Shown here: positions 7,987-35,025 of the stretch, in pieces
Layout of the letters: each line of letters starts with the position of its first letter
How positions within the stretch are numbered: position 1 is the stretch's first letter
NCBI GenBank assembly: GCA_018064855.1
Contig: JAGHUM010000043.1
Span: forward strand, 1-64,000
Origin: Candidatus Physcocola equi
GTDB taxonomy: Bacteria; Bacteroidota; Bacteroidia; Bacteroidales; Paludibacteraceae
Length of the DNA stretch: 64,000 nucleotides
Reading direction: 5' to 3'
Program-made: the position numbers and the translations under genes
The notes under the pieces: model-generated
Told to the model about the DNA's origin: nothing
The model's database searches: none
Seen by the model: only the letters and a program-made list of their open reading frames with translations

Positions 7987-8267
7987 ATAATCAACGACTA
8001 TTAGAAAGACTGCTGGTGAACGAACTGCGAAAACAAAATGCCCTGGAAGATGTTATCTGCGAATACGGAGTCGAAAATGTGCGTGCTTGCAACAACTGCG
8101 GGAAACTGATGAATGAAGGATGGCTGTATGCAGGCATTGAGACTTTTTGTTCCGACCATTGCCTAATGCAGAAACACCATGAAGAAAATTTGAAAACACT
8201 CAGACAACAAGCCAACAGCAATGACTCCGACACTTACTGGACCGAATGGGAGGGACCAGGAAAGTGA
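7983..8267 (+). CDS. Small zinc-ribbon-like hypothetical protein
   Basis: I chose the ATG at 7983 because it overlaps the upstream stop codon; a longer frame from 7824 runs through the coding region of that gene. The 94-aa product starts with a helical segment (LLERLLVNELRKQNALEDVI) and then has CNNCGKLMNEGWLYAGIETF followed by CSDHC, a CxxC...CxxxC pattern typical of a small zinc-binding treble-clef or ribbon. The function is unknown. The tail is hydrophilic and Gln/Asn/Asp-rich. Confidence 0.6.
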   Translation: MNNQRLLERLLVNELRKQNALEDVICEYGVENVRACNNCGKLMNEGWLYAGIETFCSDHCLMQKHHEENLKTLRQQANSNDSDTYWTEWEGPGK

Positions 8268-8311
8268 AATTCGCAACCTCAAAATCCACAAAACCATCCA
8301 TTCAACAAAAA

Positions 8312-8339
8312 GGGCCATACTCAATGCCGAGTATAGCCC
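8312..8339 (-). terminator. Terminator hairpin for the minus-strand lipoprotein gene
   Basis: GGGCTATACTC and GAGTATGGCCC pair on the minus strand and are followed by CTTTTTG, after the stop at 8364. Confidence 0.65.
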
Positions 8340-8363
8340 AAATAATATATCATCAATCAACAA

Positions 8364-9083
8364 TTACTTGCTGATTTTCTCAAATTTGCTGCCGTTCCAC
8401 GCATAAGTTGGACGGTGTCCGTCGATGTGCTCATCAATGGCATCATTGAAGTCGGTGAAGAAGTAAACCTTAAAGGTGTCGATACTCATACCCGGATTTC
8501 TATAAAGAAGCGACATGCTGAGATTCTTCTTTATTTCTCTGATTGCAGAAGCCTCAAACTTCGATTCGTCTTCCTTTGAAATAAACTCGCTGAAAGCAGG
8601 CTTTGGCAAGTCGAACTCCGCAGCGGTCAGTTTACCGTCTTTGTAGATGTAAGCAGCGGCTTCTTGAATCATAGAGCCATCGCATCCCACCTCATACATC
8701 CAATACACTTTGTAACTTTCCTCTCCTGCTATCGGATAGCACAAAAGGTCGAAATTACGGTGATCACATTCGCCTACCGATGAGTCGGCTGACAAACGTC
8801 TGCGATTGTAGTTTCCTTCCTCCAAATCCCATTTGCTGCGCTTCACATCACGAAACTCCTTTGGAAGCTCCGACTTTGAAATGAGATTGTAAACTTCAAG
8901 TGCGATATCCTTAACTTCTGCAGGTTTAGCAGGAGCTTCTTGAGATGCGCACTTTTTCGCAGAATCGCAAGAAGATTCAACAGCCGAGGTGTCTGCTGCA
9001 GACTTTGTGTCTGTTCCGCCATTGTTGGAAGTGCAGGCTGCCAATGCCAAAGCAGCAACTGCCAATAGATTTTTTGTATTCAT
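8364..9083 (-). CDS. Hypothetical lipoprotein
   Basis: The 239-aa protein begins MNTKNLLAVAALALAACTSN, a short signal peptide ending in a lipobox with Cys17. It should be lipidated and anchored in the outer or inner membrane. A Ser/Lys/Ala-rich linker follows, then a soluble domain with several Cys (SSCDSAKKCAS near the N-terminus). No known domain is recognised. It stands alone between a zinc-ribbon gene on the other strand and the DUF1015 gene. Confidence 0.75.
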   Translation of the reverse strand: MNTKNLLAVAALALAACTSNNGGTDTKSAADTSAVESSCDSAKKCASQEAPAKPAEVKDIALEVYNLISKSELPKEFRDVKRSKWDLEEGNYNRRRLSADSSVGECDHRNFDLLCYPIAGEESYKVYWMYEVGCDGSMIQEAAAYIYKDGKLTAAEFDLPKPAFSEFISKEDESKFEASAIREIKKNLSMSLLYRNPGMSIDTFKVYFFTDFNDAIDEHIDGHRPTYAWNGSKFEKISK

Positions 9084-9103
9084 AAGATTATTTTAATTTA
9101 AAA

Positions 9104-9136
9104 AAGGTGCCACCCCCAGAAGGAAGAAGCACCCTT
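9104..9136 (-). terminator. Probable terminator after the DUF1015 gene
   Basis: On the minus strand GGGTGC pairs with GGCACC around a long loop and is followed by TTTTTT. It lies 11 bases after the stop at 9147. The stem is short, so confidence is moderate. Confidence 0.5.
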
Positions 9137-9146
9137 GTATTTCAAT

Positions 9147-10394
9147 TTACGAAAGTTTGTGGATAACGAGACCCGAACGAAGTTTAGGCTCGAACCAAGT
9201 TGCCTTTGGAGGCATGATCTTGCCACTGTCGGCAATGCTCATGATCTGATTCATTGAGACAGGATAGAGGGCGAGCGCCAACTTCATTTCGCCATTGTCA
9301 ACACGACGTTTCAATTCCTTCAAGCCACGAAGACCGCCGACGAAGTCGATGCGTTTGTCGCTGCGAAGGTCGGTAATGCCGAGCTGCTTGTCGAGGATAA
9401 GACGTGAAGAGATATCCACATCGAGCACACCGATTGGGTCAGCATCGTTGAAAGTGCCAGCCTTAGCAGTAAGGCTGTACCATTCACCTTCAAGATAAAG
9501 AGAGAAGTTGTGCAACGCAGTTGGCTTGTAGATTTCAGCACCCTTCTTCTCCACTACGAAATCGGCTTCAAGGTCGGCCAGGAACTGAGCTGGAGTCTTG
9601 CCATTGAGGTCTTTTACCACACGGTTGTAGTCGAGGATGGTGAGCTGGCTTGCAGGGAAGCAGACTGCCATGAAGTAGTTGTATTCCTCGTCGCCTTTGT
9701 GGTTAGGGTTCTGCTTTGCCTTTTCCGCGCCAACGAGGGCAGCTGCAGCCGAACGGTGGTGACCATCGGCGATATAGAGAGAAGGCATTTTGGCAAACTG
9801 CTCGGTGATGACCTTCATGTCGGCATCGTCTGCAATCACCCAGAACTGGTGGCGGAATCCATCGATAGGAGCGATGAAATCGTATTCAGGCTTGGTGGCC
9901 GCATAGCGGGCGATGATAGCGTTGAGTTTGTCATCATCAGGATAAGCGAAGAACACAGGCTCGATGTTGGCATTGTTCACACGAACGTGCTTCATACGGT
10001 CTTCTTCCTTGTCGCGGCGGGTAAGTTCGTGCTTTTTGATGTGACCAGTCATATAATCGTCCACATAAGCGCAAACCACAAGACCATACTGAGTCTTGCC
10101 ATTCATGGTCTGGGCATAGATGTAATACTGTTCCTTATCATCCTGCTTCAACCAACCATTATCTTGGAATTTCTGGAAATTGGCAGCAGCCTTTTCATAG
10201 ACACGAGGGTCGTATTCGCTGGTACCAACAGGGAAATCAATTTCAGGTTTGATGATGTGATAGAGCGACTTCTCATTATCGCCAGCCTCAGCGCGGGCTT
10301 CTTCCGAGTCGAGGACATCATAGGGGCGGCTTTCCACCTGTTCCACTAAATCTTTTGGTGGGCGGATACCTTTAAACGGTTTAATAATTGCCAT
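9147..10394 (-). CDS. DUF1015 family protein
   Basis: The 415-aa product starts MAIIKPFKGIRPPKDLVEQV and contains RPYDVLDSEEARAEA, PVFFAYPD, ADGHHRSAAA and PLGVLDVD-like (DPIGVLDVDISSR) segments, the signature of the DUF1015 family. Its biochemical role is not established; in some Bacteroidetes it sits near serine biosynthesis genes. An upstream in-frame ATG at 10424 would overlap the queA stop region, and the ATG at 10394 starts exactly at the family N-terminus. It is the last gene of the queA run. Conserved H and D residues in ADGHHR suggest an enzyme. Confidence 0.85.
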   Translation of the reverse strand: MAIIKPFKGIRPPKDLVEQVESRPYDVLDSEEARAEAGDNEKSLYHIIKPEIDFPVGTSEYDPRVYEKAAANFQKFQDNGWLKQDDKEQYYIYAQTMNGKTQYGLVVCAYVDDYMTGHIKKHELTRRDKEEDRMKHVRVNNANIEPVFFAYPDDDKLNAIIARYAATKPEYDFIAPIDGFRHQFWVIADDADMKVITEQFAKMPSLYIADGHHRSAAAALVGAEKAKQNPNHKGDEEYNYFMAVCFPASQLTILDYNRVVKDLNGKTPAQFLADLEADFVVEKKGAEIYKPTALHNFSLYLEGEWYSLTAKAGTFNDADPIGVLDVDISSRLILDKQLGITDLRSDKRIDFVGGLRGLKELKRRVDNGEMKLALALYPVSMNQIMSIADSGKIMPPKATWFEPKLRSGLVIHKLS

Positions 10395-10424
10395 TTTATA
10401 TAAGTTTAAATGTTTTTTATTCAA

Positions 10425-11558
10425 TTAGTCGATCAAAAGCATGGCGTCGCCATACGAACCGAATTTATACTTTTCCTGGATTGCCACCTCATAGGCCTTC
10501 ATCACCAAGTCGTAGCCACCGAAAGCAGCCACAACCATAAGCAGAGTGGACAAGTTGAGATGGAAGTTGGAGATCATGCAATTGGCAACGCTGAAATCGT
10601 AAGGAGGGAAGATGAACTTGTTGGTCCAACTGTTGATTGGCTTCACAAAGCCCTCGGTATCGACGTTGCATTCAAGTGAGCGCATGACGGTAGTGCCCAC
10701 AGCACAAATCTTGCGGTTCAGTTTGCGTCCCTGGTTGATAATCTTGGCATTCTCCTCAGAAATGATAACCTGCTCGGAATCCATCTTGTATTTGGTCAAA
10801 TCCTCCACATCAATCTTGCGGAAATTGCCCAAGCCAGCGTGCATGGTGACATAAGCGAAATTCACATCGTTGATTTCAAGACGCTTCATCAGTTCACGGC
10901 TGAAGTGCAGACCTGCAGACGGAGCCACCACAGCACCCTCATTCTTAGCAAAGATGCACTGATAATACTCTTCATCCTCAGGAATAGGTTCAGCACAGCG
11001 CTCATCATTGAAAATCTCACGAGGAAGCGGAGTCTTGCCCAACGAATAGAGCGTTTTCTTAAACTCATCGTAATCGCCGTCGAACAGGAAGCGGAGCGTT
11101 CTGCCGCGTGAAGTGGTGTTGTCTATCACCTCAGCCACCAGCGAATCGTCTTCACCAAAATAAAGTTTGTTTCCGATTCTGATCTTTCTGGCAGGGTCCA
11201 CCAAAACATCCCAGAATTTCATTTCACGGTTCAGTTCGCGTAGCAAGAACACCTCAATCTGCGCGCCAGTTTTTTCCTTGTTACCCATCAGGCGGGCAGG
11301 GAAAACCTTGGTGTCGTTGAAGATCATCACGTCTCCGTCGCTGAAATACTCCACCAAATCCTTGAACACACGGTGCTCAATCTTTCCAGTCTTTTTATGC
11401 ACCACCATCAAACGACATTCATCGCGCGAGCGACAGAGGTTTTTCTCCTCGTCCGGCATATAAGCCTGAGTCTCTGGGTCCCAACGCAATTGCTTGATGA
11501 TAGGATACTGAGCGATAAGCTCTTCTGGAAGTTTGAAATCAAATTTTGAGAGTTTCAT
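10425..11558 (-). CDS. queA: S-adenosylmethionine:tRNA ribosyltransferase-isomerase
   Basis: QueA transfers and isomerises the ribosyl group of SAM onto 7-aminomethyl-7-deazaguanine in tRNA, making epoxyqueuosine. The 377-aa sequence has the family landmarks: [17 protein letters not shown] at the N-terminus, [36 protein letters not shown] and [15 protein letters not shown] near the C-terminal half. It lies downstream of truB, another tRNA modification gene, and just before the DUF1015 gene on the same strand. Confidence 0.95.
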
Positions 11559-22806: not shown

Positions 22807-24447
22807 TTAATTATTTGTTACAGAAGACAGCCATGCTGACAATCTAACATCATAAGCAGCCAATGCATTTAATGAACTTTCTAAAGATTCAACCAACTTT
22901 CTTCTTTCCGCTTTCAACATGCTCATTTCAATGAAATGAGGTGCAAAATTCTTATAATATTCTTCAACTGGGTCATACATTTTATTTAATTCTTCAAATG
23001 AGTTGGTTATAAAATTCTTTAGTTCATTTTTTGCTTGTATAAAATCGTCTTTTGCTTTCTTTTTGCGCCAAAATAAAATTACATCGACCACAACATTTAA
23101 AGCGAGAACTATTTTTGAGAAATTCTTTGCTATATTAACAGCTTGCCATGGCTTAAACTTAAAAGAAGGTAAAACAATATTTCTGATTCCCTTCACCATA
23201 TCTCCTGTCATATTTACACTCTTCAATAGTTTTGTTCCTTCTCCAATAATACTAATAGAAGAATCTAATATACCCAAATTATTTTCATAAGAAACAGCAG
23301 CCAGACTTATAGAAGAGCTATTGTTATTGCCACACTCTGCAAGAAGTGATTCTATCTTTTGAACAAAAATACCACCAGTAACTTTTCCGTTTTCTGTTCC
23401 AATTTCTTCATCTAACATGCTAGAAAACGCCTCCATACCAGTATTATTGATTGTATGTATTAAATTCTGCCGATAAGATAGTAAACTATCAATCAATATT
23501 TTTTTATTATGAAGTAATTGCTTATTCAAATCATTTAATTCAAACTGAATATTCTCATGAGTTTTTTTTGCATTCAACAATGCTTTTTTAACTTGTTCAG
23601 AAGAGGTTCCTATCATTCCTTTAACAAGTTTTGTGATATCTCTGAACGATGCCATTATCGCATTTTTGTTTAACGATGCAATATCACTTGAACGATATGT
23701 ATTTTGAACTGCAGTTCTCAACACATTTATATGAGACCTACGAAGGTATTCATCAGGTTTCCCAAACCAATAAGCCAAACCTTTGCCTTTGGGATCTGCA
23801 GAAATACATATCACATTCATATTAGCTGCCTCAGTTGCGGTAAGACCTATATTTCGAGAAAGACCATCCACTAAAAACTTCTTTTTAATAGAACTTCCTC
23901 TTTGAAAATCGGATTCGTCTAATAGATCAAAACCGGCTTCATCCATCTTGTTGATTACGAATATTGTAGAAGATAGTTTAGACAAATCTTTTAATACCCA
24001 TTTCAACTTTTCAGAATGACTTTCTTTTACTGGGTCAACTGCATCAGTAACATACAAAACAATATGCGCTTCAGATATGTAGCGTTCTGTTATTGCTGAA
24101 TACACAACGTTTTTCCCCATAACCTCTTTTTCCTTACTACCAAAGAGACCTGGAGTGTCCACTATTTCTACCCCTCCGTCTATCTTATAAAACGTCAACT
24201 CATCCGATGACTCATCAAGGTCTATCTTCATATTCTCATGCAATCTTCCTAACATACCAGCAGCTGTTGTTGTTTTACCGTCACAGGTAGTACCAAGGAG
24301 AACTATTCTAAGAGTTTCGGTAGAAAGCAGTTTTTTTACACTCTCAATCTTCAATTTTATTTCACTAAGATCCAAATTATAATCTTTTTCTCCATCAAAA
24401 ATAATGGAAGACAATTCTGTTATTGCTTCATTATAAGATTTGCTCAT
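22807..24447 (-). CDS. Dynamin-like GTPase A (canonical G motifs)
   Basis: The 546-aa protein has a complete GTPase domain: P-loop GTTCDGKTT (52-60), VDTPG (G3) and INKMD (G4). The C-terminal half is helical, with coiled-coil stretches and a hydrophobic paddle-like segment (FSKIVLALNVVVDVILFW) followed by basic residues, as in bacterial dynamin-like proteins such as LeoA. These proteins assemble on and remodel membranes. It is encoded 12 bases after a second, different GTPase (24460-26160); paired dynamins often act together. It belongs to the AT-rich minus-strand run that begins with the JAB/E2/E1 genes. A role in phage defence or membrane repair is inference. Confidence 0.8.
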   Translation of the reverse strand: MSKSYNEAITELSSIIFDGEKDYNLDLSEIKLKIESVKKLLSTETLRIVLLGTTCDGKTTTAAGMLGRLHENMKIDLDESSDELTFYKIDGGVEIVDTPGLFGSKEKEVMGKNVVYSAITERYISEAHIVLYVTDAVDPVKESHSEKLKWVLKDLSKLSSTIFVINKMDEAGFDLLDESDFQRGSSIKKKFLVDGLSRNIGLTATEAANMNVICISADPKGKGLAYWFGKPDEYLRRSHINVLRTAVQNTYRSSDIASLNKNAIMASFRDITKLVKGMIGTSSEQVKKALLNAKKTHENIQFELNDLNKQLLHNKKILIDSLLSYRQNLIHTINNTGMEAFSSMLDEEIGTENGKVTGGIFVQKIESLLAECGNNNSSSISLAAVSYENNLGILDSSISIIGEGTKLLKSVNMTGDMVKGIRNIVLPSFKFKPWQAVNIAKNFSKIVLALNVVVDVILFWRKKKAKDDFIQAKNELKNFITNSFEELNKMYDPVEEYYKNFAPHFIEMSMLKAERRKLVESLESSLNALAAYDVRLSAWLSSVTNN

Positions 24448-24459
24448 AATTCATTAGTA

Positions 24460-26160
24460 TTAGATTTGATACATGCTTTTAACAATTGCTAAAACTTTAT
24501 ACACATTTGTAGCCTCTTTATTTATTTGATTTTCAATATTTTTCTGATATCTATCTAATATTTGGAAAGGACCATTCTGGAGAGAATCCGACAAACTTTC
24601 CTTGGCTTCTGATTTTGCTTTATTAATAGCTTTTCGTACTTCATCTTTTGCCTTAGTTTTACGCTCACTTGAACTGTCTCCAAAAATTAGACCTGCTAAT
24701 CCTCCCACTATTGCTCCAATACCAGTTCCAACTGGGCCAAAAAAACTGCCTATTGCAGCACCCGTGCCTGCAGTTCCTAATGTTGAAACTGATTGCATAA
24801 CAAAATCCCCAAGCCCATAACTTAAGGCATCTTCCGCATTATATGTATTAACATTTGTATCAATTCCATCAGAGGATGCATTTATATAGCCAACATTAAT
24901 AAATCTCATTTCTCTACGAAGAGTCTCCAATCTTTCATGAAGAGAATGCATCTCTGTTCTAAAAATCGAATTGATATCTTCAGTAATCGCTCTTCGACAT
25001 TTCTCTTGATCTGATGATGCGTATTTTTCTAAAATATCTGCATCTACATCACCACAAAGATCATCGTTCAACTCTCCAAAACGATTTTCTATTGATAAAT
25101 TACATTTACTTTCTATCGTTCTTTTCTCATCAGAAATTGCCGACATCATAGATTGCAAGTATCTCCCCATCTCTGACATGGCTGATTCCAAATCGGATGT
25201 AGGTATCTGCCTAATTTTGTCCTTCAATCTTAACTTAAGGCCATATAACTTTTGCTGGTTTGCTTGTTGTATCATTACAGGATATGATTGAGAAGCCCCC
25301 TTAACAAGTTGTTCTATTGCACTAAAACGGCTGAAATTGAAAGTATTTTCTGCACTTCCAAAATAAGAGATCAACTTATTTTGATACATTATAAGATCCT
25401 GTCGTCTAGGTGAAAATGAACCTTTAGCACACATTGCAAGTTGAGCCTGCATTATCACATTCCCTTTATAAACATCTCCCAAAATTCTCTTAAATTCAGC
25501 CTGTATAAGTAAGTCATTCTGTTTTACTAATTCAGTAAGAAGAGTTTCTCTTTCTTCTTCCTCATCATAATTACTCACTCCACCACGTACATTTTGAATT
25601 GAATAAACATATACCCATTGTCCTAAATAATTCTTGATTTTCTGAGCAGTACCAATGTCTGGTTTCTTATTATGTCCCTGCACATAAAAAACAAGATGCG
25701 CTTTATGAAGAGCATCCTTAATAACATCTCTAAACTCATTTTCATTACCTTCTATACCTGGAACATCTATCAAAGTGAATGGAACACCATTCATATTTAG
25801 TTTGTATTCATGGTAATCTCTTGTAAAATCAGACGAGCCATCACCAACAATTAAGCCATCATTACCTGGCATGTAATTTGGATCATAAAGAATACGAAAA
25901 GTTTCTATTATCGTACTCTTCCCTGCATTTGTTTCCCCAAAAAATGCAATCACCAAATTATCCCAAGCCATGCTATCAATCGCAAGTATTTCATTGGTAA
26001 TACTTTCAATTTCTTGTTTGATGACTGGAATGATTCTATCTCTTACTTCAACGCAACTATTATGATGAACAGGTATTGCATCAAGTGCGTTATTACAGTT
26101 TACCAACTGTTTCAAAAAATCTGAATATTGTGCTTTAGCACCCAAATAGTTATTGTTCAT
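24460..26160 (-). CDS. Dynamin-like GTPase B (degenerate G4, Gly-rich membrane segment)
   Basis: The 566-aa protein has P-loop GETNAGKST (75-83) and G3 DVPGIEG, with Val in place of the usual Thr. Where NKxD is expected the sequence reads YSIQNVRGG, so base recognition may be altered. Residues ~450-495 form a glycine-zipper-like hydrophobic segment (GTAGTGAAIGSFFGPVGTGI and GAIVGGLAGLIFG) that probably inserts in membranes. Long helical stretches surround it. It lies 12 bases after the DUF4407 gene and 12 bases before dynamin-like gene A, so all three should be co-transcribed. The pairing recalls LeoB/LeoC-type arrangements. Confidence 0.75.
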   Translation of the reverse strand: MNNNYLGAKAQYSDFLKQLVNCNNALDAIPVHHNSCVEVRDRIIPVIKQEIESITNEILAIDSMAWDNLVIAFFGETNAGKSTIIETFRILYDPNYMPGNDGLIVGDGSSDFTRDYHEYKLNMNGVPFTLIDVPGIEGNENEFRDVIKDALHKAHLVFYVQGHNKKPDIGTAQKIKNYLGQWVYVYSIQNVRGGVSNYDEEEERETLLTELVKQNDLLIQAEFKRILGDVYKGNVIMQAQLAMCAKGSFSPRRQDLIMYQNKLISYFGSAENTFNFSRFSAIEQLVKGASQSYPVMIQQANQQKLYGLKLRLKDKIRQIPTSDLESAMSEMGRYLQSMMSAISDEKRTIESKCNLSIENRFGELNDDLCGDVDADILEKYASSDQEKCRRAITEDINSIFRTEMHSLHERLETLRREMRFINVGYINASSDGIDTNVNTYNAEDALSYGLGDFVMQSVSTLGTAGTGAAIGSFFGPVGTGIGAIVGGLAGLIFGDSSSERKTKAKDEVRKAINKAKSEAKESLSDSLQNGPFQILDRYQKNIENQINKEATNVYKVLAIVKSMYQI

Positions 26161-26172
26161 ATATTTTCAGTT

Positions 26173-27678
26173 TTACTCTGTAGTAGTTTGATTTGTGTCA
26201 ACTTGGTCAGAATGTGTTTGTTCTAGACTTGACTGCTGAGAATCATTCTGGCCAGAACTTGTCTGATCTGTATTTGTTTGCTGTGAATTAATTTGTTCTG
26301 AACTTGAAGACATCGTATTTCTTGATGTTTGATTTGACTCAGACATATTTGTACGTATATAAGCAGAAGGATTTGCTCTAATTTTTTCCAATTCCTCTTC
26401 TCTCCACGCATCTATCGCAACCTGCAAAAGTTCTGCTTGTGCCAAAGCAATTCTGTCAAGGACGTCTTTATTTGCCTTAACTTCAGCCTCTAATCTATTT
26501 CTGTTTTTTTCTGTTGATATTTGGACTTCAGTATTGATATGATCATTTATGTCTGAAATAATTTTATCAGCCTTTATACTTATTTTGTGAACTTCGGATT
26601 GTAACATTTTATCATAAGCCCCAAAAGAAACCATCATTTTAAACAAAGTTGGAACAATTTCAATTATCACAAAAAGAAGCATTACCATTAACCTCGCAAT
26701 GCACAATGTGTGACTTTCTTCCCAACTTGTTCCTATATACAAAGCTTCTAACTGAGCAGCAAAATGATTTAATCCTTGAGTTGTGCTTATTTTTGAATCA
26801 TTTATCTCATCTATTTGTTTTTGAAGATGAGCCAAATCGCTATTGACCTGATCAATATCAGATTGAATACGTTTCCTGTTTTCTGTTATTACACTTTTCA
26901 GTTCTAAAGCTTCTTTGTTTGCTTTACTGGTGAGTTGATCCACCTCCCTTTGCTTAAAAGCTTGTTGTCTTTCCAATTCCTTTGCAGCAGGCCCTCTTCC
27001 AGCCTTATTAGTTACTCCAGTGCCATAAAGTTCCTTATACAACTTATCATTAATGGCATTCAACTCTTCATTTGCCTTTGCCAGTTGTTTTAATGTTTCT
27101 GGTGTTCCTGCTTGTTGGTTAGTCAATTCTTTAGAAAGAGAATCCTTTCGGGAAATTAAAGCAATTTTTTGAATCTCATAATCATTTTTTTGTGCGTCAA
27201 ACTTTCCATCTGCCTTTGCCTTTACAGTTGGAAGATTCTCGCTAATCACATCGTCGAAAATCTTCATTTCTATTGGAGTTGAGATTACCACACCTAAAAA
27301 AATTGCCAGAATAATTCGTGGCAAACCTCCTTTAATTTCTTCCCAACTGATTGTATGTTTTCCATCAGAATACATCGTATTAACCATAAACCTATCAAGG
27401 TTAAAGATTAACGCTCCCCAAAAAATACCGAACGGAATTGAATAATATAATGAATCAAAAATAAAATTCAATGCATATGCACCTGAAATAGATGCCATTA
27501 ATGCCGTGAACAAAATAGTTCCACCAGTTCCTGCATATTTGGCATAATCTGGAGGACACTGGCGAAGTACTTTTTTGTTTACCCCTGCACATGTCCATAG
27601 GAACTCGTTTATTAGTCCCCCCCATTTGATTTCTTTGTCTTCTAAATTTTCTATATTTATAGCGCTCTGTTGTTCCAT
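26173..27678 (-). CDS. DUF4407 membrane protein with Ser/Thr/Gln-rich tail
   Basis: The 501-aa protein has three membrane helices in the first ~140 residues (GTILFTALMASISGAYALNF, SIPFGIFWGALIFNLDRFMV, LPRIILAIFLGVVISTP), a long coiled coil (~150-300), a fourth helix (LMVMLLFVIIEIVPTLF) and another coiled coil. This is the DUF4407 layout, of unknown function. The last ~55 residues are a low-complexity tail in which Ser, Thr, Gln and Asn repeat as NSQQTNTDQTSSGQ. Its start overlaps the end of the Ig-like gene by 22 bases, indicating coupling. It could be the membrane anchor of the system. Confidence 0.8.
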   Translation of the reverse strand: MEQQSAINIENLEDKEIKWGGLINEFLWTCAGVNKKVLRQCPPDYAKYAGTGGTILFTALMASISGAYALNFIFDSLYYSIPFGIFWGALIFNLDRFMVNTMYSDGKHTISWEEIKGGLPRIILAIFLGVVISTPIEMKIFDDVISENLPTVKAKADGKFDAQKNDYEIQKIALISRKDSLSKELTNQQAGTPETLKQLAKANEELNAINDKLYKELYGTGVTNKAGRGPAAKELERQQAFKQREVDQLTSKANKEALELKSVITENRKRIQSDIDQVNSDLAHLQKQIDEINDSKISTTQGLNHFAAQLEALYIGTSWEESHTLCIARLMVMLLFVIIEIVPTLFKMMVSFGAYDKMLQSEVHKISIKADKIISDINDHINTEVQISTEKNRNRLEAEVKANKDVLDRIALAQAELLQVAIDAWREEELEKIRANPSAYIRTNMSESNQTSRNTMSSSSEQINSQQTNTDQTSSGQNDSQQSSLEQTHSDQVDTNQTTTE

Positions 27679-28712
27679 AATGATGAAATTGAATTTGTTA
27701 TTCTTTTTGTCAATGATTTACTAAAATCTTCCATTTTTTGCCACCAATCTTTTCTTGGCGTCAATTCTAACTGATGAAAAGGAATTGATGGAACATATAT
27801 CTCACTTTTTATCTGTCGGAAATCAGGAAATTTTCCAGTATCAACATTAATGTCAACTTGCAATTGTTTCTGTTCGAAATGCATTTCAACATTCAAAGTC
27901 TGATTAATTTGCGGTGTTGGCACCATTATTGATCGAATAAGAGGTAATGGATACATCCTTATTCGTTGATGATACTCTTGAACTCCAAAAACGTCAGTAA
28001 CTTTTAACGTGAATGTTTTTTCCTTATCACAATCAACGATTTTCTCTCCTTGATGTTCCACAATGCCAAAATCCGTCAATTCTACTTCTGATGCATTTTG
28101 AACATTCCAAGAGAGTTTAATAGGGACTCGTGGCAAAGTCACATTTTTATCGACTTCAAATTGCACAACAGAAACCTCAAACACACTGATTGTAACAATG
28201 TGTTTAAAAACTCTTCTGCCATCAAGACCCACGACTTCAAAAATATAGTCTGTCGTATTATCAGGCGACAACTCACGTTCGGATGTCAAATTGATTTCCT
28301 CATTTTCTCCAGAAATCAAATTAGCAGACAGTGCATTCTGAATATTCCACTTTATTTTACACTTCTCTCCTTTTCCTTTTCGAAGTTTATCCGTATTTTG
28401 TGTTATATAGAACGATGGAGTATCTAACACCTTTATTTGCAGAGATGAAGTTTTCTGCGTGCCCGCATTTTCTATACGAAGAATAAAACTCTGAAGCCCT
28501 GCATCTGACAGTTGATAACTATAAAAAGAATTTTCTACAGGAACCTCTTTGTCGTTTATGAATATTTTGGCTGCATCCTGGACTTCCCAACGAAAAATAA
28601 CAGATTCATCTTTATATCTGACAGGATTCCCATCAAAGGTGAAACTGATTATTTGAAGATCAAATGGCACATCTTCAAACATTCCTGTGCGTTCATTATA
28701 TCTTAAAGCCAT
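27657..28712 (-). CDS. Three-repeat Ig-like protein with shared N-terminal tag
   Basis: The ATG at 28712 gives MALRYNERTGMFEDVP, which aligns with the N-termini of two other proteins of this run; an ATG at 28724 would add MSLS. Three beta domains of ~85-95 residues follow, each with a W-x-V/I-Q-[ND]-A core: IFRWEVQDA, IKWNIQNA and LSWNVQNA. They resemble Ig-like domains. There is no signal peptide, so it is probably cytoplasmic. The C-terminal ~90 residues are amphipathic (WWQKMEDFSKSLTKRI). The likely role is a scaffold or adaptor in the complex. The stop overlaps the DUF4407 start. Confidence 0.65.
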   Translation of the reverse strand: MALRYNERTGMFEDVPFDLQIISFTFDGNPVRYKDESVIFRWEVQDAAKIFINDKEVPVENSFYSYQLSDAGLQSFILRIENAGTQKTSSLQIKVLDTPSFYITQNTDKLRKGKGEKCKIKWNIQNALSANLISGENEEINLTSERELSPDNTTDYIFEVVGLDGRRVFKHIVTISVFEVSVVQFEVDKNVTLPRVPIKLSWNVQNASEVELTDFGIVEHQGEKIVDCDKEKTFTLKVTDVFGVQEYHQRIRMYPLPLIRSIMVPTPQINQTLNVEMHFEQKQLQVDINVDTGKFPDFRQIKSEIYVPSIPFHQLELTPRKDWWQKMEDFSKSLTKRITNSISSLWNNRAL

Positions 28713-28755
28713 GGACAGAGACAATAATATAACAATACATTACAATGCACAATCT

Positions 28756-29220
28756 TCAGATATCACCCATCATATTATTTATGCGCTTATTTCTATATAA
28801 ATCAGAAGTTCCTTCGTAAATTAACCGAATATCACTTTCATAATAATAAATAAATATTGAACCATTGGATAAGAAGAAAGAAGCATGTGAACTTGTTTTA
28901 TCCTCTCTTATTTCTGGTGTTTTGCAATATTTCTTACACAAAGCAGAATACAAGTCTTCAAATAATTCTGTATTTGCTGGTTTTATATTGATCCTGATGC
29001 GTCGAACATCTCCATCTCTTTCTTCCAAACTAATTCTCGCATTAGGGATTCCGGCAAATGTACCTATTAAATCCCCCGTATTCTTTTTTACATACCCCCT
29101 TTTCAGGAACTGTGATTCGACAAATGCTTTCGAGCCTACCATTTCTACGCCGGCACATACCATGAAAGATTTTTTTGAATCTTCAAATTCTCCCGTTTTT
29201 TTATTAAATTCAAGTGACAT
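28756..29220 (-). CDS. 154-aa hypothetical protein with shared N-terminal tag
   Basis: The protein starts MSLEFNKKTGEFEDSK, the N-terminal motif shared with the Ig-like and 64-aa proteins of the run. The rest looks like a compact alpha/beta fold: VRRIRINIKPANTELFEDLY then ALCKKYCKTPEIRE and SIFIYYYESDIRLIYEG. I do not recognise the family. It lies 9 bases after the ClpB-like gene, so it is co-transcribed with it and might be a cofactor or chaperone adaptor. Confidence 0.65.
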   Translation of the reverse strand: MSLEFNKKTGEFEDSKKSFMVCAGVEMVGSKAFVESQFLKRGYVKKNTGDLIGTFAGIPNARISLEERDGDVRRIRINIKPANTELFEDLYSALCKKYCKTPEIREDKTSSHASFFLSNGSIFIYYYESDIRLIYEGTSDLYRNKRINNMMGDI

Positions 29221-29229
29221 AACTTATTT

Positions 29230-31827
29230 TTAATTTTGAAATATAAATACTCCATCAACACAGTCAACATTTATTGTTTTATCCTTCTCCACCTGGTGCG
29301 TCAGTAATTTTAGAGTCAACCCATTTACAATATTGTCATTAATTGCCCTCTTTACAGGTCTAGCACCCATAGAAGTATCAAAACTCAATTCCGTCAATCT
29401 GTTAATAACATTTTGTGAAAATTCTATCAACAAATTATTCGAAAGAAGATTATCCTTTAAACGATTCACCTGAAGATTTACGATTTTTTTTATATCCTCC
29501 TTTTGAAGCGGTTTAAACATTACAATATCATCTATTCTATTGACAAACTCCGGAGAAATCGAATGCTTCATGAGTGATATAATCTGATTTTTTATCATAT
29601 CCTCCTCCTGAATGTTTCCCTCAATATCAACAGAATCTGAAATGATATCTGATCCAATATTTGAGGTCATTATGATAATTGTATTTTTAAAATTCACCAC
29701 ATGCCCCTGGCCATCGGTCATACGTCCATCATCCAAAACCTGCAATAGTGTCTCAAAAACTTTTTTGTGTGCTTTTTCCACTTCATCAAGCAATATGACA
29801 CTATATGGTTTACGTCTCACCGCCTCTGTCAATTGTCCGCCTTGTTCATATCCAACATAACCTGGAGGTGCACCAAACAAGCGAGAAACAGAATATTCTT
29901 GCTGATACTCACTCATATCAATTCGAATCATCATGTCTCTACTATCAAACAAATACTCCGCAAGAGCTTTGCATAGTTCCGTTTTACCCACACCTGTGGT
30001 ACCCAAGAAAAGAAAAGACCCAATTGGCTTTCTTTGATCACCAAAACCCATTCGGTTTCTACGAATTGATTCAGAAACTACCTTTATCGCGTCATTTTGA
30101 CCTATAACCGAATTATGTAACACATCTTCAATATGCAACAATCGTTCGCTTTCATCCTGTGTCAGATTTGACATTGGTATTCCCGTCCAAGAAGTAACCA
30201 CTTTCATTATGTCTTTTTCATCCAAAGCGGTTTTCAAAAGAGGATTTTCTATGCTGCCGATTTCATCAAAGAGTTCCTCCACCTGCCTTCTTAACGAACT
30301 CTCTCGTCTTTGCAATTCCACCACCTCTCCAATTCTATTCCTTCCATGCAACTCTGCTTCCTCTATATGAATTTGCAATCGTTGTAGTTGTGATGTGAGT
30401 TCTTGATATTCTGTCAACCTTCTACATTCATTCTGCCATTTGGCATTAAGTTCATTCTCTTTTTCCTGTAAATCCGCAATTTCTACAGACAAGCAATCTA
30501 TTTGCTCTAACGATGCCGGACTTTCATCTTGTATCAAAGACTCTCGTTCTATCTCTTTATTCATGATTTGACGCTTTATCATTTCCAAATCATGAGGAGA
30601 TGAGAATCGATCAATACGCATACTTGAAGCAGCTTCATCAAGCAAATCAATTGCCTTATCCGGTAAAAATCTATCCGAAATGTATCTGCTTGACAATTTC
30701 ACAGCAGCAACTATCGCATCATCTAATATCTTAATATGATGATGATTTTCAAAACGAGACTTGATTCCGCGCATTATCGTAATCGCAGAATCTTCATCAG
30801 GTTCATTTATCAATATTTTTTGGAATCGACGTTCAAAAGCTTTATCCTTTTCAATATATTCACGATATTCATCAAGAGTTGTTGCCCCTATAATATTCAA
30901 GCCTCCCCTTGCCAATTCTGGCTTAAGAATATTAGCAGCATCCATTGCACCTCCATTTTTCCCGGCTCCAATGATTAGATGAATTTCATCAATAAACAAA
31001 ACAACATTTGGATTACTTTTTACATCAGTAATAACCTGCTTGAGTCTATGTTCAAATTCACCTTGCATTTGTGCTCCCGCAATTAAAGACGCCAAATCTA
31101 ATGAATAAAGAATTAAGTTCTTCAATTCATCAGGCACATCACCTCTAACTATTCTATGAGCCAATCCTTCAACTACCGCAGTCTTACCTGTTCCAGGTTC
31201 CCCTATCAAGATGGGATTATTTTTAGTTTTTCGAGATAGAATCTGTAAAATACGCCTTATTTCTTCATCTCTGCCTATAGCAGGTTCTATTGTTCTGTCC
31301 TCCGCTAAAACATTTAAGTTTACTCCATACTTTCTAAGATTTGGAAGGTTTTCCTCTTCGAATCGCGACGGTTCAGACGACAAGTCATCATCATGATGAT
31401 ATAAACGTATAGCATGCTCAATTTTTTGAGCAGTGACACCAAACTGTATCATCAAATCCTTCACGGGATTAGAGACACGAAAAAATGCCCAAAAGACAAA
31501 CTCCAAAGCAACAACATTAAATCCTTCATTCTCAGCCAACGTAGTAGCTTCTTCTAAAATTGACTCTAGTGTCGCTGTAAATTCAGGATCTAATACTCGA
31601 TTATGTTCAATTAAACGCAAAGAATCTCCAATAGCTGAAAAAAAAGCATTTTTATCAACTTCCATGGTATCTAACAAAAAAGGAACCATGTCATTACCTT
31701 CTTGAAAAACTGCAACCATCATCACCTGAGGCTCTACGCTTGCATACTGGCATTCTTTTGTTAGAGACACAGCTTTCAATAATGCACTTCGCGATTTATT
31801 TGTAAACTTTGTGAAATCTATTGACAT
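29230..31827 (-). CDS. Divergent ClpB-like AAA+ disaggregase
   Basis: The 865-aa protein has the full ClpB layout: a Clp N-domain (1-~145), NBD1 with GEPGTGKTAVVEG (209-221) and VVLFIDEIH, a coiled-coil middle domain (~410-520), and NBD2 with LGTTGVGKTELCKALAEYL and SVILLDEVEKAHK. NBD2 pore loop GAPPGYVGYEQGG keeps its Tyr, but NBD1 pore loop reads GAQMQGEFE, with Met where ClpB normally has Tyr. No ClpP-binding loop was seen, so it should unfold or disaggregate rather than feed a protease. Its place directly after an E1-like gene suggests it acts on modified proteins. It is clearly not a housekeeping copy given its AT-rich context. Confidence 0.85.
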   Translation of the reverse strand: MSIDFTKFTNKSRSALLKAVSLTKECQYASVEPQVMMVAVFQEGNDMVPFLLDTMEVDKNAFFSAIGDSLRLIEHNRVLDPEFTATLESILEEATTLAENEGFNVVALEFVFWAFFRVSNPVKDLMIQFGVTAQKIEHAIRLYHHDDDLSSEPSRFEEENLPNLRKYGVNLNVLAEDRTIEPAIGRDEEIRRILQILSRKTKNNPILIGEPGTGKTAVVEGLAHRIVRGDVPDELKNLILYSLDLASLIAGAQMQGEFEHRLKQVITDVKSNPNVVLFIDEIHLIIGAGKNGGAMDAANILKPELARGGLNIIGATTLDEYREYIEKDKAFERRFQKILINEPDEDSAITIMRGIKSRFENHHHIKILDDAIVAAVKLSSRYISDRFLPDKAIDLLDEAASSMRIDRFSSPHDLEMIKRQIMNKEIERESLIQDESPASLEQIDCLSVEIADLQEKENELNAKWQNECRRLTEYQELTSQLQRLQIHIEEAELHGRNRIGEVVELQRRESSLRRQVEELFDEIGSIENPLLKTALDEKDIMKVVTSWTGIPMSNLTQDESERLLHIEDVLHNSVIGQNDAIKVVSESIRRNRMGFGDQRKPIGSFLFLGTTGVGKTELCKALAEYLFDSRDMMIRIDMSEYQQEYSVSRLFGAPPGYVGYEQGGQLTEAVRRKPYSVILLDEVEKAHKKVFETLLQVLDDGRMTDGQGHVVNFKNTIIIMTSNIGSDIISDSVDIEGNIQEEDMIKNQIISLMKHSISPEFVNRIDDIVMFKPLQKEDIKKIVNLQVNRLKDNLLSNNLLIEFSQNVINRLTELSFDTSMGARPVKRAINDNIVNGLTLKLLTHQVEKDKTINVDCVDGVFIFQN

Positions 31828-31862
31828 TTTTCAACGGATAAAATAATTAATATCTTAATTTT

Positions 31863-33128
31863 TCATTCCTCAACAGACAATCCCGACATGTCTAGATTAA
31901 TCATATCACCATACTTACTTCTTATTGTTCCACCCTCATCAAGCAACACCTCACGATCTGAACATAAACTACAATTATCATTTTTTGGAATATGTGCACC
32001 ATACCACCTCATAATAGTAGGTTTTGAGCCTGCACCAGGCATAGCAGCCCAATTGGCATGTCTTCTTTCCCTACGATTTGCCCACATGTAATAATCATAA
32101 ATCAGTTCATTTTCAAGACATGAAATACCAGATTCCACTCCACGAGATAGTTCCATGAGAGCTAACTTTACCATCATATTACAGATTGGTTCAATATCTG
32201 CTGACAAACCGACCTGGACAAACGCATCTGCATCTCGTTCTGATACATATGCTGCAATTTGACCATTACGACGAGCACTTGCGACATTGGAAACCTCACC
32301 TTCTGACAATCCAAACCACTGATTTCCGATAAGGCAACAATAACAAGGGCCACCAGGTCTATATCTGAACACGTCGCCACCTTCAGCTCTTGTAACAGCC
32401 CTTCCGAACAAACCTACCTTTTTTTGATGTACAAGAGTTGATGAAAGATTGAATCGGCTTTCGTTATTGTCAGTTGCACATATTACAATATCAGCCTTTG
32501 CAACTTCATCTTCCATCAAATCAAGGTGCTCATTTATATTTATGGCATATTTTTTTACACAGGCATACGGATTTTTCCCTTTTATTGATTCTTCAATCAC
32601 ATCTGTTTTGAGACGACCTAAATCTTTGACCGTAGCTGTATGCCTTGCTAAATTATGGAGTTCAACTCTGTCAAAATCAAACAATGAGAACTCTCCAACA
32701 CCTGCTTTAGCTAATTCAATGGCGATTTGGGATCCAAAACTTCCTAGGCCAACAATCATTACCCGTTTCTCTTCTAAAACATTCACCTCCAAGATTCCTT
32801 TGTTTCTTGAATACAATTCTTGCTTTTTAGGAATATAATTGACCTCTACTTCGAAGGATTTGGAATGTACCTTTGCTGTTATTTCGTCATTTTGTTTAGA
32901 CACATACACAACATATAAATACTCCAAACCCTCATTGGCGTCATTATCTTCTTTCAAGAATAAAACATCATTACAAGATCCAAAAGAATGTTTTATTTTG
33001 TCAGTGTGGATATGCACAACATTCTCACCTTCCCACTCATACGCCTTCCCTACAATGGAAAAATCAGAAGAGTTGAAGAAAAACTCCAACTCTTCCTTGC
33101 TCATATAGATTGTTTTTTTCATAATCAT
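31863..33128 (-). CDS. E1-like (ThiF/UBA-family) adenylating enzyme
   Basis: The 421-aa protein has an N-terminal domain of ~115 residues that I do not recognise, then a ThiF/E1 Rossmann domain: VMIVGLGSFGSQIA (127-132 loop), FDFDRVELHNLARH (the DxDxVExxNLxR ATP-binding motif) and VICATDNNESR. A zinc site is formed by CYCC (262-265) and CSLC (386-389), as in MoeB/ThiF-type enzymes. E1 enzymes adenylate the C-terminus of a ubiquitin-like protein and pass it on via a thioester. Its ATG overlaps the stop of the upstream 64-aa gene by four bases; a second ATG at 33122 is possible. E2-like and JAB genes lie just upstream. Confidence 0.88.
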   Translation of the reverse strand: MIMKKTIYMSKEELEFFFNSSDFSIVGKAYEWEGENVVHIHTDKIKHSFGSCNDVLFLKEDNDANEGLEYLYVVYVSKQNDEITAKVHSKSFEVEVNYIPKKQELYSRNKGILEVNVLEEKRVMIVGLGSFGSQIAIELAKAGVGEFSLFDFDRVELHNLARHTATVKDLGRLKTDVIEESIKGKNPYACVKKYAININEHLDLMEDEVAKADIVICATDNNESRFNLSSTLVHQKKVGLFGRAVTRAEGGDVFRYRPGGPCYCCLIGNQWFGLSEGEVSNVASARRNGQIAAYVSERDADAFVQVGLSADIEPICNMMVKLALMELSRGVESGISCLENELIYDYYMWANRRERRHANWAAMPGAGSKPTIMRWYGAHIPKNDNCSLCSDREVLLDEGGTIRSKYGDMINLDMSGLSVEE

Positions 33129-33319
33129 AAAGCAAAACCCTCACTCGTCATATCTGTTACAATCATACCATCACCTTGCGTCGAACCCTGTGCAACAGTC
33201 TCAAACTCCCCAGTTGTCGGATTAAAAACTAATTCACTCATAGTTCCAGTTCCGCTTCCCGTTCCTTGTCCACCTTGGATTCGAACATCTTCTCCAATTT
33301 CATTTAAACCTTTTGCCAT
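33125..33319 (-). CDS. 64-aa Gly-rich protein with shared tag, in the usual ubiquitin-like gene position
   Basis: The product opens MAKGLNEIGEDVRIQGGQGT, continues with a GSGTG linker, then has MSELVFNPTTGEFE, the motif shared with two other proteins of the run, and ends MIVTDMTSEGFAL. An internal ATG before SELVF would give a 38-aa form. It is too short and too Gly/Ser/Thr-rich for a full beta-grasp fold and has no C-terminal GG. Its stop overlaps the E1 start by four bases and it follows the E2-like gene, exactly where a ubiquitin-like modifier is usually encoded. It may be a modifier, precursor peptide or substrate; this is inference. Confidence 0.6.
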   Translation of the reverse strand: MAKGLNEIGEDVRIQGGQGTGSGTGTMSELVFNPTTGEFETVAQGSTQGDGMIVTDMTSEGFAL

Positions 33320-33338
33320 ATTCTATATATTTTAATAT

Positions 33339-33764
33339 TTAACTTTGATGACTTAAATAATAATCCATGTCTTTGCCCGTTTTAAGATGAAGTTCATACA
33401 TATTCAACCACAACGCACATTTTATATATACTTTAAAAAGAGATACCATAGGGGTCCATGAACTTGATCCATAATGGCATATACGTGTATATCCATGTTC
33501 GGTAGGCAACGTATGCATCGCTGCACTTGCATCGTTCATAGATCTACCACTTTTTGTTTGTAACATTTTTGTAACAAACGCATGGGGAAGTTGATTTGGG
33601 AATCCCTTTAAATCTATACGTATGGTATAAACTTTCCCAATATTTGTTTTTACTGGCATCAAAACATAAGGTTCACTGGTACTCATATCCTTAAATACAC
33701 ATTGAACCATAGGCATTTCTTTTTGCAGTACTTGTTTTTCTAAATTCAATCTTTCAGGAGTCAT
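33339..33764 (-). CDS. E2-like (UBC-fold) conjugating protein
   Basis: The 141-aa protein shows the pattern of bacterial E2-like domains. A beta segment YTIRIDLKGFPNQLPHAFV recalls the UBC strand plus the YPxxP turn. It is followed by GYTRICHYGSSSWTP with a candidate catalytic Cys96, and a helical end CALWLNMYELHLKTGKDMD that resembles the W-x-x-x-YE-x-x-L-x-TG ending of CBASS- and Bil-type E2 proteins. It sits between the JAB gene (4-base gap) and the 64-aa gene. It would accept the activated modifier from the E1-like enzyme. Confidence 0.7.
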   Translation of the reverse strand: MTPERLNLEKQVLQKEMPMVQCVFKDMSTSEPYVLMPVKTNIGKVYTIRIDLKGFPNQLPHAFVTKMLQTKSGRSMNDASAAMHTLPTEHGYTRICHYGSSSWTPMVSLFKVYIKCALWLNMYELHLKTGKDMDYYLSHQS

Positions 33765-33768
33765 ACCA

Positions 33769-34812
33769 TCAAATTACATTAATATTTAACATTTTATAAT
33801 AAGTTACAAATGATTCATAAATATTGTCCCCACATTCCCATTTTACATGAGGTTCTATCACGTCACCATTTGATTTTTTAAAGATTGGGGCACTAAGGGG
33901 AAACTTATTCCCAAAATAAATTTCTATGTTATCATTCCCCGATATAACAACCAAATGAACTTTCTTTTCTTCATCCAAAAAAGGTTTAACTTGTGAAGTT
34001 GCGCCTCCTTGGTTTTTCAAAAAATCAATTATATTCTTTAAAACTTGATTGTTATTCTTATTATTCAACCAATACTCTTCATCATAATTTGGAGTAACCA
34101 TTGATGCATTGCCCATTGCCGATAAGATGTAGTTTGGTCCATAACTTGCCTTTGTTGTTCTAGGATGGCAAATCAAACCTCGTAAACTATTATCTATTAA
34201 ATTTCTATATGGACTTTCTATCTCAATAATTCTCCATGGCACATGCTTATATTGAGTGATACTATTAATATTGAATGAAAAAGCATTTAACGTTGAACGA
34301 GCGCTCCTATCACAATTTCCTATACATAAGAGAAAATTTTGGAAATTGTGACGTTGTATTCCATGAATGACAGTTAAAGCATCATGTCCACTTGGTTTAG
34401 CTAAACCTAATTGGTGATGAGAATGCCATTCTCCAATGTATCTAAGTCCATACTTTCGAGAAATTTCATTATAGACTGTCTGTAGATATTCTGTATCTTG
34501 ATTAAAAAACGTAACTTGATGATTTGCACTCTTTCCAGGACCAATTGCATAGCAAACAACAGCCACACCATCCTCTTGAAGGAAACCAAACAACTGACCT
34601 CCAGTTTCAATATTTGGATAGTCTCCTATACACCTACTTATATAATCCATTTCACTGCGATATATCACAGCCAATGGTGCGGTTTTAGATGCCTGTCCAA
34701 TTACAGAAGCCCCCTCTAATAAACCTGATGTTTGATTTTCAATCTTATTTATCTGTTTTTGATCCTTATTCGGTTTAACTTTTAATTTGTTTTTTTTCCC
34801 TTTTCGTCTCAT
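33769..34812 (-). CDS. JAB/JAMM peptidase with UBC/RWD-like C-terminal domain
   Basis: I prefer the ATG at 34812 (MRRKGKKNKLKVKPNKDQK, 347 aa); an ATG at 34914 would add 34 residues that look non-conserved. Residues ~45-175 are a JAB domain with NIETGGQLFG (Glu69), EWHSHH (His130, His132) and PSGHD (Ser141, Asp144), the zinc metallopeptidase site used by deubiquitinases. The spacing between HSH and S is one residue longer than usual. Residues ~280-347 (KVHLVVISGNDNIEIYFGNK then FPLSAPIFKK) look like a second, catalytically dead E2/RWD-type fold. It heads the ten-gene run and would trim or remove the modifier. Confidence 0.8.
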   Translation of the reverse strand: MRRKGKKNKLKVKPNKDQKQINKIENQTSGLLEGASVIGQASKTAPLAVIYRSEMDYISRCIGDYPNIETGGQLFGFLQEDGVAVVCYAIGPGKSANHQVTFFNQDTEYLQTVYNEISRKYGLRYIGEWHSHHQLGLAKPSGHDALTVIHGIQRHNFQNFLLCIGNCDRSARSTLNAFSFNINSITQYKHVPWRIIEIESPYRNLIDNSLRGLICHPRTTKASYGPNYILSAMGNASMVTPNYDEEYWLNNKNNNQVLKNIIDFLKNQGGATSQVKPFLDEEKKVHLVVISGNDNIEIYFGNKFPLSAPIFKKSNGDVIEPHVKWECGDNIYESFVTYYKMLNINVI

Positions 34813-35025
34813 GGCATCATCTGTATTTAAATAAAAATAATAACAAATTTTTTCAATAAATGTATTTAACATTACAACAAGCGATGAACAAAAGGTGTGC
34901 AAAACATTTTTCATTTTAACGACAATATAGATTATTTGTAAATCACCATTTGTAATTGTTTCTCATCTAAACATGAAGTTCCAAAATTTCTATTCACATT
35001 TAGTTGTCAACCTTCCGTCCAGACA

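Follow-up and report, generated by a model that had tools for sequence, protein, structure and literature searches.

Three proteins encoded on the minus strand of one operon in Candidatus Physcocola equi (Paludibacteraceae) share the short motif L-x-[FY]-N-x-x-T-G-x-F-E, with the remainder of each protein unrelated. The operon lies in a 64,000-nucleotide stretch of DNA, hereafter the window (assembly GCA_018064855.1, contig JAGHUM010000043.1, positions 1-64,000, forward strand), and the carriers are an Ig-like protein, a 154-residue protein and a 64-residue small protein encoded between the genes of an E2-like and an E1-like enzyme. A first-pass annotation of the window had reported the common motif on these otherwise unrelated proteins, and the observation is borne out. 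The preferred explanation, given a probability of about 0.5, is that the motif is a portable docking tag, originating in the small protein, that links interchangeable operon effectors to a core of JAB, E2 and E1 conjugation enzymes. More generally, the occurrence of the tag on many unrelated proteins of the same gut-bacterial operons probably labels them for docking to one protein-modification machine.

The proposed mechanism begins with a hairpin that would be built from a strand (L-x-[FY]-[ND]), a turn (x-x-T-G) and a second strand ([ED]-F-x-x-V). This hairpin would have existed first in the small protein and, in one clade of E1 enzymes, would have been placed on the N-termini of unrelated effectors of the same operon. 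The core, probably through E1 or an E1-E2-JAB complex, would have a site that recognizes the small protein's own hairpin, and the tag would bind there; the conjugation machine would in this way recruit effectors, hold them or pick them as targets. The transferred moiety may be the small protein itself, in which case JAB would trim it after G-F-A, E1 would adenylate its C-terminus and E2 would carry it on Cys96.

Distribution of the motif and its carriers

Related loci were found with an alignment of three E1 proteins as the query, yielding 30 loci, most of them from metagenome-assembled genomes (MAGs), in Bacteroidales, Kiritimatiellae, Fibrobacter, Treponema, a Planctomycetaceae MAG and a Desulfovibrionaceae MAG. 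The genes for JAB, E2, small protein and E1 follow one another in that order in almost all of them. N-terminally tagged cargo amounts to 26 proteins in 18 loci, the window included, and these proteins fall into 18 groups without mutual similarity once the first 16 residues are removed. The cargo includes short membrane proteins, Ig-like proteins with a DUF4407 partner and a UvrD-like helicase; membrane segments are predicted in eleven of the tagged proteins, many of which are small membrane proteins. Every tagged locus belongs to a single E1 clade (support 100/100), and homologues within E1 operons retain the tag, so that its absence from homologues, which the first-pass annotation had named as grounds for abandoning the idea, is not what is seen. 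Conservation across related operons, N-terminal restriction to those operons and the unrelated nature of the carriers together support the common docking site that had been suggested.

Within the window, the motif stands at the N-terminus of the Ig-like and 154-residue proteins and supports the start codons chosen for both genes. The earlier extension of both statements to the 64-residue protein does not hold, because there the motif is internal. A start at 33241 in this gene would place the motif first, but the long start at 33319 is right, since the first 26 residues (EDVRxQGGQGTG) are conserved among homologues.

Pattern searches over about 700 genomes of the class, made regardless of E1, and over host genomes of related loci address how specific the N-terminal position is. 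A strict DNA pattern gave 44 further matches in 300 genomes of the family (41 inspected), an ATG-anchored pattern gave 63 further matches in 395 genomes of the class (49 inspected), and the 26 host genomes of related loci held 48 off-operon matches (43 inspected). None of the inspected matches was an N-terminal tag; in these genomes the motif is not equally common at unrelated N-termini, the other outcome that had been set against the idea. In the 2.99-Mb genome of the source organism, the DNA form TWYAAYNNNNNNACNGGNNNNTTYGAR occurs five times: three are the operon copies, and the other two lie deep within long unrelated proteins. E1 enzymes of this kind are rare, being present in 3 of 295 genomes of the order. 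Loci recruited through E1 cannot show that tags need E1, because the set was chosen through that enzyme.

One host genome, G596, which carries locus L058, contains internal tag-like sequences outside the operon (NYVFDPVTGEFREEG, NYEFDPSTGEFVAKP), located in proline-rich linkers of a UvrD helicase and a small membrane protein. The UvrD copy resembles the operon cargo of L058 well past the motif. It sits in a variable linker, and none of the 18 readable linkers of relatives (19 with a UvrD match) has it, a difference counted in favor of the docking tag. Recent copying was considered and dropped as unsupported, because at the DNA level the UvrD linker and the cargo tag of L058 are no more alike than a synonymous null allows (57 of 500 reached that similarity).

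A further line of evidence comes from homologues of the cargo modules outside E1 operons, which carry a kinase-like or other domain instead of the tag. In six genomes of the family, longer proteins have the Ig-like module at their C-terminal end, and a DUF4407 gene comes after each of them; the Ig-to-DUF4407 gene order recurs in L042-L047, L055 and L062-L064. The N-terminal part appears kinase-like in five of the six (L042, L043, L045, L046 and L047), to judge from the motifs HGDL/HADL and DYD, and is a different domain in L044. Genes upstream of the kinase-Ig proteins, where readable, look VWA- and PP2C-like by eye. Residues 25-154 of the 154-residue protein resemble the C-terminal domain of the second kinase-like protein of L043 (E 5e-5, 23% identity), a locus in which the order of p154-like, Ig and DUF4407 genes (9939-11417 and 8057-9928) is that of the window. 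These VWA-PP2C-kinase-Ig-DUF4407 operons (L042, L043, L045-L047) thus share homologous Ig and DUF4407 proteins with the window, and in L043 the p154-like domain, but they differ in having kinase-like N-terminal domains and VWA/PP2C genes where the window has the tag and an E1-E2-JAB core. In the window's Ig-like and 154-residue modules, the kinase-like part is absent and the tag is found at that end, a change that is read, by sequence comparison, as replacement of one connection to a signaling core by another.

Structure prediction is consistent with a hairpin. For the Ig-like protein, AlphaFold2 (overall predicted local distance difference test score, pLDDT, 79) places tag strands at residues 3-6 and 11-14 (pLDDT 71-74); the three Ig domains that come next score above 90, and their Foldseek matches are multi-Ig proteins. 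In the natural fusion of small protein and E1 from L058, hairpin strands are predicted at residues 24-27 and 32-35. The tag is accordingly modeled, with modest confidence, as a beta-hairpin in two contexts. Structure prediction for the small protein with E1 used natural fusions and E1 rows; MAFFT scattered the small proteins when they were aligned jointly with E1. Placement of the hairpin on E1 from the L058 fusion model was dropped, as no confident placement was obtained.

The small protein and the conjugation core

Nearly all of the 30 related loci encode the small protein, of 56 to 82 residues and with the hairpin as its core, between E2 and E1. The strict motif is found in 22 of 29 aligned small proteins, with looser forms such as VELVIGEDGELEAM or KLTFDPVTGELII in the deeper lineages. 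L058, L070, L079 and a Bradyrhizobium plasmid encode the small protein as an N-terminal fusion to E1. Because it is either encoded between E2 and E1 or fused to E1, E1 or its complex is the favored reader of the hairpin and the small protein its favored first owner. Of the partners suggested initially, this favors the E1/E2 side and leaves the ClpB-like side weaker. The C-terminus in the tagged clade is a conserved G-[FY]-A; many small proteins end exactly there, and others carry up to five more residues or run on into E1. Searches of Pfam gave no match for the small protein, whose fold is visible only as the low-confidence N-terminal part of the fusion model, and neither Pfam, NCBIfam nor PADLOC assigned a family to the small, Ig-like or 154-residue proteins. 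A second small protein or second tag copy occurs at L055 3027-3200, L065 3486-3653 and L063 9690-10001 (the last ending FGG), as if small proteins had been duplicated.

The JAB metal-site motif WHSHH-x(7)-S-x2-D is invariant in 23 homologues, as are C96 and H84 of E2 in 24, and the intact JAMM motif, E2 cysteine and ThiF-type nucleotide site identify the set as a JAB-E2-E1 conjugation core. In a model of the fused orthologue, the E1 catalytic domain is nearest to ThiF and MoeB (VIA-align, Z ~24), with matches falling mostly in residues 160-453 and the N-terminal domain mostly outside them. Tagged-clade E1s carry an acidic tail after the last CxxC (e.g., LDTGDE...; window 31866-31960), which the deeper lineages mostly lack. 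In L071 (Desulfovibrionaceae MAG, 9127-10401), the E1 gene is in pieces, through frameshift or decay.

A bacterial precedent makes the small protein a plausible, if analogical, substrate of E1 and E2 with cleavage by JAB. In type II cyclic-oligonucleotide-based antiphage signaling systems (CBASS), E1-E2 act on the C-terminal Gly/Ala of a protein without a ubiquitin fold, and JAB cleaves there (PMC10097602). The C-terminal Ala of many small proteins would fit this Gly/Ala rule, a point counted for the docking tag and its core (PMC10097602). The likeness to Cap2/Cap3 extends to the presence of E1, E2 and JAB without a recognized beta-grasp ubiquitin-like protein (Ubl). The present systems differ in that E1 and E2 are separate genes rather than joined as in Cap2, the small protein takes the place of the cyclase, and E1 lacks a conserved catalytic Cys (Cap2 has a Cys in both parts), with E2 Cys96 invariant. 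Of ten window proteins spanning 22807-34914, the PADLOC scan matched none to a CD-NTase (cGAS/DncV-like nucleotidyltransferase) cyclase. On the Bradyrhizobium plasmid pBb323S2b (L273 5002-11372), related JAB, E2 and small-protein-fused E1 genes precede those of a CBASS cyclase, a SAVED endonuclease and a TIR protein, and no cargo tag was seen at this locus. The core of the window is related to machinery in a CBASS locus, the pBb323S2b core being a distant relative. The pBb323S2b cyclase has an apparent frameshift near its start and ends in TFGA.

Two other bacterial operon types invite comparison. The Citrobacter Bub system, known from structures of BubCD, BubB and BubA, is likewise an E1-E2-JAB-type operon, and the E1 model aligns to BubCD. 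The alignment covers the generic E1 domain alone (model residues 172-449; Z ~20, below the ~24 of ThiF/MoeB), and no Ubl is recognized here, whereas BubA contains one. Operon type 6d is the PRTRC type. In the E1-E2-JAB-Ubl operons of type 6d, the small component is a beta-grasp protein with a conserved C-terminal glycine (Iyer et al. 2006, PMC1779556). Type 6d and the present loci both have JAB, E1, E2 and a small protein as separate genes within one operon, but the small protein here, at 56-82 residues, has no family match and ends in G-[FY]-A.

Tentatively, and with less assurance than the docking itself, the system may combine a peptide-sized modifier lacking a ubiquitin fold with a recognition hairpin that acts as a mobile code of about 13 residues, open to any effector and, in one host, gained by a housekeeping helicase. 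If docking is correct, bacterial ubiquitin-like machines would swap effectors by means of a tiny portable tag rather than a domain, with new effectors joining through the gain of about 13 residues. The tag would then provide a sequence signature for finding such effectors in raw genomes, as well as small, easily synthesized peptides with which to learn which enzyme reads it, and an E1-E2-JAB system that lacks a recognized Ubl would probably have the unstudied small protein at its center.

Weighing the proposed docking tag against its alternatives

Several points weigh against a docking tag for the conjugation core. The related loci were recruited through E1, making its presence there a matter of construction, and docking to any partner is deduced from gene order and the small-protein-E1 fusions. 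In the fusion model, the hairpin has a pLDDT of only ~56-61 and no reported contacts with E1. The four zinc cysteines are the only invariant cysteines among aligned E1 homologues, and the usual thioester relay is not assured because no catalytic Cys is conserved. Among the deeper E1 lineages (L073-L081), the gene that follows E1 is untagged or starts with an N-terminal sequence of another shape. Lastly, the ClpB-like gene of the operon accompanies tagged cargo almost as consistently as the core. At L075 1781-3232, L077 3313-4491 and L073 11253-11630, the post-E1 gene opens with a longer, strand-rich stretch (KIRFPDGSVFDVETGEFEG, IITLRNGTRVDMSTGEIIS) before FGE-sulfatase/SH3 or other domains; this stretch may represent an earlier version of the tag.

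The alternative that survives best, although improbable, is homotypic assembly, in which hairpins on the small protein and cargo would stack into a signaling complex. The same short motif on adjacent unrelated proteins recalls both effector-associated domains (EADs; PMC7159879) and the bacterial amyloid signaling sequences (BASS) of neighboring Bell and NLR proteins (PMC8086366), and L056 carries the tag in two tandem copies. EADs are small elements that otherwise unrelated proteins from the same operon have in common, and they are proposed to connect a core with its variable effectors (Kaur et al. 2020, PMC7159879). Here, too, a non-enzymatic element is common to a core small protein and 26 cargo proteins, with further copies elsewhere in the genome. 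However, EADs are whole alpha or alpha+beta domains on NTPase-centered systems rather than a ~13-residue hairpin, which in this case is also embedded in a separate small protein of the E1-E2-JAB core; the tagged proteins have no Pfam match at the tag, and the hairpin is none of the described EADs. BASS motifs comprise 20-40 residues at Bell C-termini and NLR N-termini and act by amyloid templating (PMC8086366). They resemble the tag as short motifs on neighboring, otherwise unrelated proteins, but the tag is a short, turn-stabilized hairpin rich in charged residues; general Pfam and PADLOC scans of the window proteins named no Bell or NLR protein, no search having been aimed at either. The residue after [ND] is mostly P in small-protein tags and mostly E, D or P in cargo tags, and such a systematic difference fits one receptor better than strict self-pairing.

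Somewhat less probable still is that the tag serves the ClpB-like disaggregase as a signal for docking or delivery, the N-domain of that enzyme gripping the hairpins of effectors and small protein and unfolding or releasing them. The ClpB-like gene, present in 15 of the 30 related loci, either separates the core from the tagged cargo or adjoins the cargo, and is found in 15 of 18 tagged-cargo loci versus 1 of 13 others (Fisher p = 4e-5, without correction for common ancestry). As all tagged loci belong to one clade, a single ancestor may account for the association, which is not independent evidence for either partner. Tagged cargo occurs without ClpB in L060 (10 kb read downstream), L072 (7.6 kb) and L067 (2.4 kb, with the contig ending soon after); a housekeeping ClpB might serve in its place. 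Conversely, L082 has ClpB and no tagged cargo, and the hairpin of the small protein is kept in ClpB-less loci such as L054, L080 and L081.

A role as a mark of conjugation targets is less probable again; here E1/E2 would join the small protein, or some other group, to residues within or next to the hairpin, and JAB would take it off. Such a role would make use of the invariant E2 Cys and JAB metal site, and a G-[FY]-A end followed by 0-5 residues or an in-frame E1 fusion resembles a JAB-processed precursor; yet tags aligned position by position contain no conserved lysine, and nothing separates a target from a mere docking site. Chance resemblance, or a widespread beta-turn sequence with no function in common, is very improbable and was discarded: x-x-T-G is a frequent turn with internal matches in unrelated proteins, but N-terminal matches are essentially absent elsewhere in ~700 genomes, against 26 operon proteins.

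Gene order and neighboring genes

The genes are listed in Table 1 in their minus-strand order from 34914 down, followed by the motif copies.

Table 1. Genes of the operon (LeoB- and LeoA-like genes as possible members), copies of the motif in the window, and tag-like linkers in genome G596
Feature	Position	Strand	Basis
JAB/JAMM metallopeptidase, 381 residues, first core gene	33772..34914	-	PADLOC JAB 1.4e-16
E2-like enzyme, 141 residues, candidate catalytic Cys96 with His84	33342..33764	-	PADLOC E2 3.9e-5
Small protein, 64 residues, central hairpin motif, C-terminal G-F-A	33125..33319	-	same-position orthologues in 29 aligned loci
E1-like adenylating enzyme, 421 residues, zinc site, N-terminal domain of unknown fold	31866..33128	-	ThiF 9.3e-31
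ClpB-like AAA+ disaggregase, 865 residues	29233..31827	-	TIGR03346 1016 bits (below equivalog cut-off 1232)
Tagged 154-residue protein	28759..29220	-	no Pfam/NCBIfam/PADLOC family
Tagged Ig-like protein, 351 residues: tag hairpin, three Ig domains (~20-253), disordered stretch, C-terminal helix	27660..28712	-	AlphaFold2, Foldseek
DUF4407 membrane protein, 501 residues, untagged, partner of Ig-like protein	26176..27678	-	PF14362 6e-66
LeoB-like dynamin-family GTPase, possible further effector	24463..26160	-	PADLOC LeoBC 3.5e-88
LeoA-like dynamin-family GTPase, possible further effector	22810..24447	-	NCBIfam DLP_LeoA_gen 2.9e-125
N-terminal tag MALRYNERTGMFED of Ig-like protein	28671..28712	-	AlphaFold2 strands 3-6 and 11-14
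N-terminal tag MSLEFNKKTGEFED of 154-residue protein	29179..29220	-	
Hairpin motif MSELVFNPTTGEFET, internal, residues 27-41 of 64-residue small protein	33197..33241	-	
G596 tag-like linkers: housekeeping UvrD helicase and small membrane protein	L174 189-1016 and L173 458-955		

A literature search on DUF4407 yielded nothing useful. No LeoA- or LeoB-like GTPase was found in the 30 related E1 loci; in the window, the two GTPase genes (22810-26160) lie directly downstream of the DUF4407 gene.

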